A DNA stretch of 31,399 nucleotides, taken from positions 1-31,399 of the IMG/VR virus record IMGVR_UViG_3300037541_000205, one strand, 5' to 3'. The DNA comes from a virus. Under the pieces are notes generated by a model. It made no database searches. It was given only the letters and a program-made list of their open reading frames with translations, and was not told the origin of the DNA. A program made the translations under genes and the position numbers. This document shows, piece by piece, positions 12,239 through 15,478 of this stretch; position 1 is the stretch's first letter, and each line of letters starts with the position of its first letter.

Positions 12239-12276
12239 AGTATCGGCGCGCGACGGCGTTACGTCTACCCGTAACG
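12239..12276 (-). promoter_or_regulatory. Candidate leaderless late promoter with CGTTAC/GTAACG dyad
   Basis: A -10-like GATACT (12,244-12,239) lies 6 bp before the nuclease ATG, with a weak -35 TAGACG (12,267-12,262) 17 bp further. An inverted repeat CGTTAC-8 bp-GTAACG spans 12,257-12,276 and covers the -35 region. Transcription would begin at or next to the start codon. It follows the terminator of the last early cassette, so a promoter is needed here unless transcription reads through. Confidence 0.4.
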
Positions 12277-12311
12277 AAAACGCACGCGCTCGGAACGTCC
12301 GAACGCGTGCG
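12276..12311 (-). terminator. Intrinsic terminator after cassette A
   Basis: In minus-strand RNA CGCACGCG pairs with CGCGTGCG around a 15-nt loop that can itself pair (TTCGGACGTTCCGAG), followed by TTTTCGTT. It closes the last early small-gene cassette before the late operon. Confidence 0.7.
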
Positions 12312-12335
12312 CGGGTAAGAAAAGATATCGGTAGT

Positions 12336-12599
12336 CTAGCGCGATTCGGCGGCGGCGCGCGCGGCGTAATCCTCCGCGCAACGCTTCGCGCGTTCTATCG
12401 CGTAGGGGTCGCGCGCGTTTTCGGCGTACGCGTGGACGTGTTGCCCCTTGACAGACACGGCGACTAGCAAGCCCGCATCGCCCGACACGAAATCGAGCCG
12501 AACGGGTAGCCCGTGGATGCGCGCGACGATTGCAGATTGCCAACCGTTTCCAACGCTATCCCAAAGGGGCAACGACCACGTAGCGTCGGCGATGTTCAA
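12336..12599 (-). CDS. Cassette A second gene (A2), small unknown protein
   Basis: 87 residues from a TTG (12,599) overlapping the stop of A1, with the RBS GGGGGTGG inside the end of A1. The frame is open further upstream but that would overlap A1 wholly. It is a paralogue of B1 (13224-13508): both have W..(GW) text near the N-terminus, a VSVKG/VSVNG turn followed by V, and a C-terminal IERAKRCAEDYA / IQRAKECAYRYA helix. Predicted fold is beta strands then a helix. Function unknown; early expression is inferred from the promoter upstream. Confidence 0.7.
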   Translation of the reverse strand: MNIADATWSLPLWDSVGNGWQSAIVARIHGLPVRLDFVSGDAGLLVAVSVKGQHVHAYAENARDPYAIERAKRCAEDYAARAAAESR

Positions 12600-12919
12600 T
12601 TGCCACCCCCGATTTCCGTAGCGAACACTTCGCGGCCGTGGTCGTTCGCGTCGCGCACCATAAGCCCCGCCGCGCGAAGCGCGTCTAACGTCGTTCGGCC
12701 GATGCCCGCGACGCGTTGCCCGTTGACATCGCGCAAAACGCAATCCCAAACCAATATCCGTTTTTTAACCGACCAATATTGGTTATGGCTACCGTAGCGT
12801 TCGCAACCGATGTCTTTTTTGAACCATTGGACGTATCCACCCGCGCGCAGAATTGCGATAGCGCGCACCGCGCGCGCGCTGTTGAGTGTGTCGGCCGTGT
12901 TGTTTGCGTTCGTGTCCAT
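12596..12919 (-). CDS. Cassette A first gene (A1), small unknown protein
   Basis: 107 residues from ATG 12,919 with AGGGGT upstream. It is a paralogue of C1 (13680-14072): ARAVRAIAILRAGGY / GRALRAAEIVRAGGY, RVAGIGRTTLDALRAAGL / CVAGFGSAAARDCSKAGI and REVFAT / RQVFAT. The order helix-strands-helix suggests a compact domain. It ends EIGGGN, whose codons carry the RBS of A2. Driven by its own promoter and hairpin leader. Function unknown. Confidence 0.75.
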   Translation of the reverse strand: MDTNANNTADTLNSARAVRAIAILRAGGYVQWFKKDIGCERYGSHNQYWSVKKRILVWDCVLRDVNGQRVAGIGRTTLDALRAAGLMVRDANDHGREVFATEIGGGN

Positions 12920-12982
12920 TGTGTACCCCTGTCGTTGTCGGCGTCGGCCGCCGTGGCCTGTCGCCGTAGTGGCGACGCGGTG
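12920..12982 (-). promoter_or_regulatory. Two-hairpin leader of cassette A
   Basis: Transcribed leader between promoter A and A1. First stem GTCGCC-ACTAC-GGCGAC (12,976-12,960), second stem GGCC-ACGGC-GGCC (12,958-12,946), then GACGCCGACAACGACAGGGG before the ATG. The first stem differs from the other copies by a paired change. Confidence 0.75.
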
Positions 12983-13040
12983 AGTATAGCGAGGCCCGCG
13001 CGCGTGTCAACCCGCATTGGACAGAATCCGAAGGAATTCT
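12983..13040 (-). promoter_or_regulatory. Early promoter A with upstream box
   Basis: -35 TTGACA (13,010-13,005), 16-bp spacer, -10 TATACT (12,988-12,983). Upstream, GAATTC and GGATTCTGTCCAATG form the conserved box (to 13,040) shared with five other promoters. The box overlaps the end of B2. Confidence 0.85.
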
Positions 13041-13227
13041 ACCGCGCGGGCACGACGACGAACCCGCCGCGCTCCACCGCGGCCGATTCCGTCGGCGACA
13101 GGTCGGCGAACACGCACGGGCAATCGAACACGACGCGCGTACCGTCGGCGTCGCGGTCGAACACGTCGCCCGTGCCGCGGCAATCCGCGCACGTCGGGCA
13201 CGGCCGTAGCGTTACGGGGGCGCTCAA
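13039..13227 (-). CDS. Cassette B second gene (B2), small Cys-rich protein
   Basis: 62 residues from TTG 13,227 (TTGA overlap with B1), starting MSAPV like E2 and D2 (MSA). It has a zinc-ribbon-like CPTCADCRGTG segment and a second CPC motif (FDCPCVFADL), as in DnaJ-type or treble-clef zinc sites. The following LSPTESAAVERGGFVVVPAR is a short helix and strand. It may bind zinc and RNA or protein. No terminator is seen between it and promoter A. Function unknown. Confidence 0.65.
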   Translation of the reverse strand: MSAPVTLRPCPTCADCRGTGDVFDRDADGTRVVFDCPCVFADLSPTESAAVERGGFVVVPAR

Positions 13228-13508
13228 ATGCCACCCCCAATCGCGACCAACGTCGAAGCGTACCTATAGGCGCATTCTTTCGCGCGTTGAATCGTGCTAC
13301 GTGCGTTACCGTTGATAGGAAAGAAACCTACTACCGTTCCATTTACAGACACGCCGATAGACGACATACGGCGCGTGTTGTATTGGTAGTCGATATTCAA
13401 TTGCGCGTGCGCGTTATTGATTGTAGATTCAATCACGCAACGCCAACCGTAGGTTTGGCTGTACCATTGGGCGCGGTTCCACGTGGTGTCGGTGTTCGTC
13501 GTGTTCAT
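13224..13508 (-). CDS. Cassette B first gene (B1), small unknown protein
   Basis: 94 residues from ATG 13,508, AGGGGTTAC upstream. It is a paralogue of A2 and probably of D1 (VNG turn after a beta-rich middle). Visible blocks: WYSQTYGWRCVIES, QLNIDYQYNTRRMSSIGVSV, NGTVVGF and IQRAKECAYRYAST. It ends LVAIGGGI, the tail shared with E1, A1 and the exonuclease, encoding the RBS of the next gene. Function unknown. Confidence 0.75.
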   Translation of the reverse strand: MNTTNTDTTWNRAQWYSQTYGWRCVIESTINNAHAQLNIDYQYNTRRMSSIGVSVNGTVVGFFPINGNARSTIQRAKECAYRYASTLVAIGGGI

Positions 13509-13569
13509 TTGTAACCCCTGTCGTTGTCGGCGTCGGCCGCCGTCGCCTGTCGCGTCGTGCGACACGCGG
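13509..13569 (-). promoter_or_regulatory. Two-hairpin leader of cassette B
   Basis: First stem GTCGC-ACGAC-GCGAC (13,563-13,549), then a GGCG...GGCC second dyad and the conserved CGACGCCGACAACGACAGGG stretch leading into the RBS. Same layout as leaders A and C-F. Confidence 0.75.
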
Positions 13570-14630: not shown

Positions 14631-14692
14631 TTGCAACCCCTGTCGTTTCGCGGTCGGCCCGCGTGGCCTGTCGCGTTCGTCGCGACGGGTGG
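14631..14692 (-). promoter_or_regulatory. Two-hairpin leader of cassette D
   Basis: First stem GTCGCG-ACGAA-CGCGAC, second stem GGCC-ACGCG-GGCC, then GACCGCGAAACGACAGGGGT before the start codon. Confidence 0.75.
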
Positions 14693-14750
14693 AGTATAGA
14701 CAGACTTCGGCGCCTGTCAACCCACGTTGGACAGAATCTAGAAAGATTCC
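14693..14750 (-). promoter_or_regulatory. Early promoter D with upstream box
   Basis: -35 TTGACA (14,720-14,715), 16-bp spacer, -10 TATACT (14,698-14,693). The box has the inverted repeat GAATC-TTTCTA-GATTC followed by TGTCCAACG. Confidence 0.87.
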
Positions 14751-14751
14751 C

Positions 14752-14784
14752 AAAAAGACACCGCCCCGCGGGTGCGCGGGGCGG
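14752..14784 (-). terminator. Intrinsic terminator after cassette E
   Basis: Hairpin CCGCCCCGCG-CACC-CGCGGGGCGG in minus-strand RNA followed by TGTCTTTTTGGG. It lies between E2 and promoter D. Confidence 0.9.
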
Positions 14785-14811
14785 CATCGGCGCGCGGGCG
14801 GGCGCGCGGGG

Positions 14812-15099
14812 TTACGCGTGGGGGTCGCGGTACGAATCGGCGCGGCCGACGTAGGCGCGGCGCCCGCAACCGTCGGCGGCGTCGTAGACGCCCTGCTGTT
14901 CGCGGCTTGCCACGTAGCGTTCGCAACCGCCCGTAGCGTCGCCGTCAATCTGTACCAAAATCGACAGGCGCCGACGCCCGCCGAATTGCAACACCGCCGA
15001 CACCGTCGCGGGGTATCGGTCGCTACCGATACACACGGTAGCGGGCATACCGACCGCGGGCGCGACGTTCGGAACGCCGTAGCGGGCGTGGGCGCTCAA
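14812..15099 (-). CDS. Cassette E second gene (E2), small unknown protein
   Basis: 95 residues from TTG 15,099 (TTGA overlap with E1), beginning MSAHARYGVPNVAPAVGMPA. The core TVCIGSDRYPATVSAVLQFG then RRRLSILVQID resembles small SH3-like beta-barrel proteins seen in phage early regions. A Cys pair (GGCERYVASR, ADGCGRR) follows. A terminator follows its stop. Function unknown. Confidence 0.68.
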   Translation of the reverse strand: MSAHARYGVPNVAPAVGMPATVCIGSDRYPATVSAVLQFGGRRRLSILVQIDGDATGGCERYVASREQQGVYDAADGCGRRAYVGRADSYRDPHA

Positions 15100-15359
15100 T
15101 AGCCACCCCCAATCGCGACCAATGCCGAAGGATGCGCGAACACGGCGCCGTCGTAGTGGTCGTGTTCGGGGATTGGTTCCAACCAATCGCCCGCCACAAT
15201 GTCGGCGTCGGCGTCGATCTTCGCGAAGTGCGGCGCGATCTTGAAAAGCCCGCCCATTTTGCTGTCGGCCGCGATAACGCGCGTAACCGTAGCGTTGAAC
15301 GGGCGCGGGCTATTCGGAACGTTGACGACGACGTGTTGCCCGACGGTAAACTTACACAT
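15096..15359 (-). CDS. Cassette E first gene (E1), small unknown protein
   Basis: 87 residues from ATG 15,359. The frame is open upstream through the leader, but the conserved leader and a GGGG-type RBS place the start here. VGQHVVVNVPNSPRPFNATV then TRVIAADSKMGGLFKI suggests a small beta barrel (SH3- or KOW-like). It ends ALVAIGGGY, coupling to E2. First cassette after the tRNA. Function unknown. Confidence 0.7.
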   Translation of the reverse strand: MCKFTVGQHVVVNVPNSPRPFNATVTRVIAADSKMGGLFKIAPHFAKIDADADIVAGDWLEPIPEHDHYDGAVFAHPSALVAIGGGY

Positions 15360-15421
15360 AGCGAAACCCCTTGCAATCGGCGTCGGCCGCCGCGGCCTGT
15401 CGCGTTCGTCGCGACACACAC
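15360..15421 (-). promoter_or_regulatory. Two-hairpin leader of cassette E
   Basis: First stem GTCGCG-ACGAA-CGCGAC, second stem GGCC-GCGGC-GGCC, then GACGCCGATTGCAAGGGGTT. The last part resembles leader F (GCAAGGGGTT). Confidence 0.75.
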
Positions 15422-15478
15422 ACAATAGCAACGCCCGCGGCCGTGTCAACCCACGTTGGACGAATTCCGCAAGAATTC
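15422..15478 (-). promoter_or_regulatory. Early promoter E with upstream box
   Basis: -35 TTGACA (15,449-15,444), 16-bp spacer, -10 TATTGT (15,427-15,422). The box is a perfect GAATTC-TTGCG-GAATTC inverted repeat followed by GTCCAACG; it starts 6 bp from the tRNA 3' end. Confidence 0.8.

Follow-up and report, generated by a model that had tools for sequence, protein, structure and literature searches.

Regulatory blocks with a conserved two-hairpin leader precede exchangeable small genes in an uncultivated phage

The IMG/VR virus record IMGVR_UViG_3300037541_000205, a 31,399-base sequence with a GC content of 62% (hereafter the window), carries its recognisable phage genes (terminase, portal, capsid and a recombination/replication operon) on the minus strand, together with an array of small-gene cassettes that is the subject of this study. 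Five regulatory blocks, A to E, lie within 3.2 kb, and a sixth, block F, stands ahead of the recombination/replication operon; all six blocks and the cassette features located below are on the minus strand. The blocks follow a common design, GTCCAA-N6-TTGACA-16/17-TAnnnT, followed by two leader hairpins (H1 and H2) and an AGGGG ribosome site, and they are 60-79% similar to one another. Block A (12917-13040) comprises a GTCCAA box (13022-13017), a promoter (13010-12983), H1 (12976-12960), H2 (12953-12939), a Shine-Dalgarno (SD) sequence and a start at 12919. The corresponding promoter, H1, H2 and start are located at 13597-13570, 13564-13548, 13542-13528 and 13508 in block B (13506-13627); at 14160-14133, 14127-14109, 14103-14089 and 14072 in block C (14070-14190); at 14720-14693, 14686-14670, 14663-14649 and 14630 in block D (14628-14750); and at 15449-15422, 15416-15398, 15392-15378 and 15359 in block E (15357-15479). 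Block F (22354-22477) has its promoter at 22447-22419, H1 at 22412-22398 and H2, with a loop of 7 nt, at 22390-22374.

The cassettes encode proteins of 57-130 amino acids (aa). Cassette A contains A1 (12596-12919, 107 aa), a paralogue of C, and A2 (12336-12599, 87 aa), a paralogue of B1 whose TTG start is coupled to A1. Cassette B contains B1 (13224-13508, 94 aa), modelled as five strands and a C-terminal helix, and B2 (13039-13227, 62 aa), a four-cysteine CxxCRGxG...CxC protein that is the most conserved cassette gene and whose stop overlaps block A. A single gene, C (13680-14072, 130 aa), follows block C, while the D and E cassettes each hold a first gene, D1 (14412-14630, 72 aa) or E1 (15096-15359, 87 aa), and a second gene with a coupled TTG start, D2 (14242-14415, 57 aa) or E2 (14812-15099, 95 aa). 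The first gene behind block F (22105-22356) encodes 83 aa. No window cassette protein had a match in Pfam, PHROGs or PADLOC, nine proteins tested from the cassettes of relatives gave nothing convincing in Pfam, and Foldseek searches with models of two families, B1 (pLDDT 80) and C (pLDDT 73), returned no significant fold match.

The second genes are attached to the first by a recurrent seam, in which a coupling motif, GATTGGGGGTGGCNNTTGA, precedes a TTG start that overlaps the first gene's TGA stop, as between E1 and E2 (15096-15114). Copies ending at a TTG start are likewise found at B2 (13227), A2 (12599) and the Erf-like gene of the F operon (21110), the last linking the exonuclease and Erf-like genes; a variant ends at the start of D2 (14415). 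The motif also encodes the C-terminal IGGG common to most first proteins. In addition, the first genes are rich in Thr and Asn over residues 2-13 (0.35; the value is 0.10 for the body of the protein and 0.15 for the beginning of second genes), which perhaps reflects an unstructured translation start.

The initial annotation had described five such units and a sixth copy in front of the recombination operon, and pattern searching, Markov comparison and repeat finding all bore this out. Exact matches to TTGACA-N15-18-TATNNT number five in the whole record, all of them on the minus strand within the array, and block F carries TTGACA-N17-TACAGT (22447-22419). The record holds six TTGACA promoters that match the consensus at 10 or more of 12 positions, whereas 200 first-order Markov samples contained 0.175 on average and never more than 2; all remaining promoter-like sites in the 31-kb sequence score 9/12 or lower. 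The blocks were also recovered independently as families D1, D2, D5 and D6 of the repeat search. The GTCCAA box lies exactly 6 nt upstream of the -35 element in each of the six promoters, and across 42 distinct upstream segments its G, T and first A are invariant and its two C's nearly so. A palindromic operator in GTCCAA-N6-TTGACA was considered and rejected, as the dyad (TGTCNA-N7-TNGACA) is imperfect and an operator could not be separated from the conserved -35 element. The spacer of the F promoter contains a perfect 7-bp inverted repeat, GTAACGC-N5-GCGTTAC (22440-22422), present too in the L131-L134 phages, which is likely, from its sequence and position, to be a repressor operator specific to F.

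Terminators follow cassettes A (12280-12312), C (13635-13660), D (14201-14220) and E (14757-14788), as originally proposed, and the proposed protein sizes also hold. The last three terminators lie immediately upstream of blocks B, C and D, respectively, so that terminator and promoter are joined at these blocks; block E follows a tRNA gene, and block A has no terminator joined to it. In many relatives a T-run is found about 30 nt upstream of the -35 element. The tRNA gene (tRNA-Leu, 15485-15558, minus strand) is immediately upstream of block E, between the methylase gene of the F operon and the array, and is kept in the relative L013.

The position and structure of the leader are equally regular. 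H1 starts 4-7 nt downstream of the -10 hexamer, which places it at or beside the predicted 5' end of the transcript, and H2 is immediately upstream of the ribosome site. Single-sequence folding was unremarkable (z from -0.6 to -2.65), so that the proof of the hairpins lies in covariation and not in folding energies. In a MAFFT alignment of 43 leaders compared with 500 shuffles, 98.4% of H2 cells were paired against 65% in the shuffles, and changes on both sides were found at all five pairs, in 48 cells against 15.5, a result that none of the 500 shuffles matched. As MAFFT does not hold the two length classes of H1 in register, each class was analysed on its own; pairing reached 92.8% and 100%, and double changes were present. 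Thus, the two-hairpin leader described in the initial annotation is a conserved RNA structure. The H2 stem has 5-6 bp, and its loop is GCCGA in 33 of the 43 leaders and mostly GGCGA, GGTGA, GCTGA or GCAGA in the others, with one ACCGA; in block F the stem is kept beneath a 7-nt loop, which is the same in the four related phages examined. That the loop is preserved above a covarying stem suggests that a protein recognises it. No leader matched an Rfam family above its gathering score. The M23 candidate found at the leader of block B, which scored 26 bits where the gathering score is 41, was judged a generic two-hairpin resemblance and set aside. As far as searches of Rfam and the literature show, the two-hairpin leader is a previously undescribed phage RNA element.

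Searches with the large terminase subunit (TerL) returned many relatives, and a profile of the six blocks located whole or partial arrays in L011, L012, L013, L016, L019, L021-L023, L028-L032 and L035. In phages whose flanks are 95-99% identical, the same blocks stand before different genes within the array; the blocks are therefore portable, and the modularity proposed at the outset passed the comparison among related phages suggested with it. L011, for example, is 99.4% identical to the window over 12623-7353, yet B1 and A1 differ and there is an extra cassette. In L011, L012, L013 and L016, an 86-aa gene unrelated to A1 stands in its place. The B1 slot holds one of three unrelated alternative genes, counting the window together with its relatives. 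D1 has given way to another gene in L012 and has been lost from L016 and L013, and in L011, L012 and L016 the D2 gene has a separate cassette flanked by B and A. Exchange extends to the F slot, whose gene differs in the L134 phage (the same contig as L012), and a homologue of the window's F first gene is found in an array cassette of L022. Clustering of the array proteins yielded about 30 families, a few of them spurious open reading frame calls, and most are limited to few phages; two families searched as profiles across IMG/VR matched in this clade alone. Divergent block copies facing away from the array, also on the minus strand, are found in L028 (5244-5136), L030 (4973-4863) and L032 (4656-4545). 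Those of L028 and L030 precede homologous proteins with an NxWCxPAA motif that resemble a cysteine peptidase, and the L030 protein had no Pfam match.

Several blocks are themselves composite. L016_5094 matches D in its upstream segment and promoter (0.97 and 1.00) and C in its leader (0.96), and is followed by the C gene, which is exactly the product expected from block-to-block recombination deleting the D genes. L013_287 joins an E block to the C gene, and L011_1034, L012_6186 and L016_6187 combine an A upstream segment with a D-type leader and the D2 gene. Judging by this composition, the chimeric blocks record recombination between blocks. More generally, swaps, deletions and transpositions have their borders in a block or at the coupling-motif seam: blocks and coupling motifs together make up 36% of the array, and each of the 15 alignment ends examined falls no more than 30 nt from one of them.

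Taken together, these observations are best explained, with a probability that we put at about 0.72, by a hyperplastic accessory-gene array composed of portable expression sockets for rapidly exchanged genes that are shuffled by homologous recombination. Each socket would consist of the terminator of the previous unit, the GTCCAA box, a near-consensus sigma70 promoter, H1, H2 with its GNNGA pentaloop and a strong ribosome site, while the SD-bearing coupling motif ending in TTGA would form another seam, at which a second gene can be coupled to the first. As the sockets are alike, homologous recombination within or between genomes could swap, delete and transpose genes with expression unbroken, and the phage's own exonuclease/Erf-like pair may drive the process. 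Under the control of promoter and leader, many small proteins would then be made strongly, in insulated units and probably early, alongside the products of the F replication operon. Shared regulation of the cassettes is very likely, and early expression, which the initial annotation took to be simultaneous, is likely, because sigma70-like promoters are common to the array and the replication/recombination operon. The likeliest role of H1 is to protect the 5' end of the mRNA; in E. coli, mRNAs are stabilised by stem-loops at the 5' terminus (Emory 1992, as cited in PMC3997798). H2 most likely serves as a protein-recognised or initiation-insulating element.

Several observations weigh against this reading or narrow it. 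No terminator was found after B, and B2 ends within block A (stop at 13039), so that B reads into A and the two are not insulated; the original view of independently transcribed units thus fails for B, while most of the other units have a terminator of their own. The block is absent from relatives with 71-73% TerL identity, and the clade bearing the array is narrow (TerL about 77% or more); no different repeat array was evident in two of the more distant relatives, L034 and L040. The near-identical relatives are few, with four distinct arrays besides the window's own. The 15 alignment ends are not independent, which makes their binomial value merely indicative, and alignment ends mark the ends of homology, so that their location at seams partly restates the swapping of whole genes; the footprint case consequently rests mainly on the chimeric blocks. 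Finally, the part that the exonuclease/Erf-like pair may play in recombination is read only from its presence.

The similarity of the blocks could in principle have arisen merely through tandem duplication of cassettes, without functional portability, and the paralogous pairs A1/C and B1/A2 are what such duplication would leave behind. However, most slot genes are mutually unrelated, yet their blocks are 60-79% alike, and duplication leaves unexplained the replacement of genes in the same slot by unrelated ones, the compensatory changes in the leader and the chimeric blocks. This explanation, already disfavoured by the slot replacements, is very improbable. A different question is what the exchanged genes do. 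They might form an anti-defence (Acr-like) early locus, each cassette blocking a host defence and a helix-turn-helix (HTH) protein shutting off the shared promoters; being a proposal about gene function, this is compatible with portable sockets. The genes are small, rapidly exchanged and co-regulated, an HTH protein is encoded in the F operon, and the acr/aca genes of SIRV2 share one regulatory sequence (PMC11065993). The anti-defence or host-takeover role suggested in the initial annotation thus has a precedent in archaeal viruses, but homology did not support it: PADLOC, PHROGs and Pfam gave no match (the silence of PADLOC, a defence library, being weak evidence), the structure searches of two families found nothing significant, and the two families searched across IMG/VR are confined to this clade. 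We regard this role as possible but somewhat unlikely.

The leader admits further readings at the RNA level. It might be a shared RNA handle, through which a phage protein binding the GNNGA pentaloop after initiation would govern all cassettes and the replication operon together; if so, any gene entering a socket would immediately join an RNA-level regulon, a rather doubtful idea. Another possibility is an antitermination or RNA-regulon element, with H2 as a nut-like boxB bound by a phage RNA-binding protein or H1-H2 as a put-like element acting on RNA polymerase, from which transcripts would read through terminators towards the late genes, which do lie downstream on the same strand. The H2 loop is conserved on a covarying stem of 5-6 bp and fits GN(N)RA, the P22 boxB pentaloop class in which the third base is looped out (PMC12550061), although this is a match of shape only. 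However, every unit has a separate promoter and most have a separate terminator; no leader reached an Rfam gathering score; and inspection, short of a dedicated search, revealed neither a boxA-like stretch in the leader linkers nor an N-like arginine-rich protein among the F-operon translations. We regard this reading as improbable. One arginine-rich small open reading frame (22108-21953) was rejected as an N protein, as it has no ribosome site and its L134 counterpart did not look conserved by eye.

A direct terminal repeat of 159 bp (1-159 and 31241-31399, 99% identity), detected by repeat finding, indicates that the record probably represents a whole genome, either circular or terminally redundant. 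The operon downstream of F (15614-21907, minus strand) encodes exonuclease VIII-like and Erf-like annealing proteins, a replication initiator, YdaS/Cro-like HTH and MarR-like proteins, and a DNA methylase (15614-16267), with the genes of HTH proteins at 17676-18137 and 16831-17169; L016 carries an insertion of about 0.8 kb (2189-3013) at the MarR-like gene, relative to window positions 16831-16837. The structural region includes a putative SAM-dependent methyltransferase gene (1029-2222), additional to the DNA methylase of the F operon. The portal protein (5410-8238) has 942 aa, with a fused MuF-like head-morphogenesis domain and a long middle insertion. No isolated relatives were found by DNA, nucleotide similarity to phage records was limited to the tRNA, and TerL is at most about 32% identical to the isolates listed. 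Assignment of a host through TerL matches in contigs of metagenome-assembled genomes (MAGs) was abandoned, since these matches, the best of them (62%) in a Coriobacteriia MAG, fell in many phyla, and the contigs lack the block.

Among known systems, the SIRV2-type archaeal viruses also place many small unrelated genes, including anti-CRISPRs, behind one strong shared promoter sequence active early (PMC11065993). That promoter is of the archaeal TATA/BRE type, and the passage on it mentions no leader structure or terminator block; some of the gene functions there have been tested. The SAS/ESAS elements of Cluster K mycobacteriophages likewise recur ahead of numerous phage genes, and about half of them contain inverted repeats (PMC3203893); however, SAS is a start-codon-associated sequence and there is little support for ESAS mRNA hairpins (PMC3203893), whereas the leader hairpins of the array covary. 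With the lambda/P22 nut sites the array shares a boxB-like stem with a GNRA-like pentaloop in H2. The HK022 put RNAs form two hairpins near a promoter, resembling H1-H2. In contrast to both nut and put, the hairpins of the array are found at six promoters, immediately upstream of ribosome sites, and, unlike in nut systems, neither boxA nor an N protein was noticed on the inspection described above, which was not a dedicated search.

The closest counterparts are the PeSL (promoter-early stem-loop) cassettes of T4-type phages, reportedly described by Arbiol (2010) and Comeau (2014). In these, a composite of a terminator and a sigma70-like early promoter lies between small dispensable genes, and recombination between copies shuffles hyperplastic regions. 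The array resembles them in its strong sigma70-like promoter in each intergenic copy, in the stem-loop terminator joined to the promoter at blocks B, C and D, and in the shuffling of genes among close relatives with borders at cassettes. It differs in belonging to an unrelated clade of phages of about 31 kb and 62% GC, and in adding a transcribed, covarying two-hairpin leader, the GTCCAA box and the coupling seam; its terminator hairpin precedes the promoter, while its conserved hairpins are within the mRNA leader. No T4-like core was detected among the genes scanned, and we found neither homology to known PeSLs nor a T4-type context. On this comparison, based in part on reference titles and PMC4503421, we class the array as a PeSL-like system and not as a PeSL, as it appears to work alike. 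The array offers a clear design for the uniform control of many exchangeable genes in a small phage, and its block may serve as bait for new accessory proteins of uncultivated phages. PeSL-like socket shuffling would thus occur outside T4-type phages, apparently by convergence.

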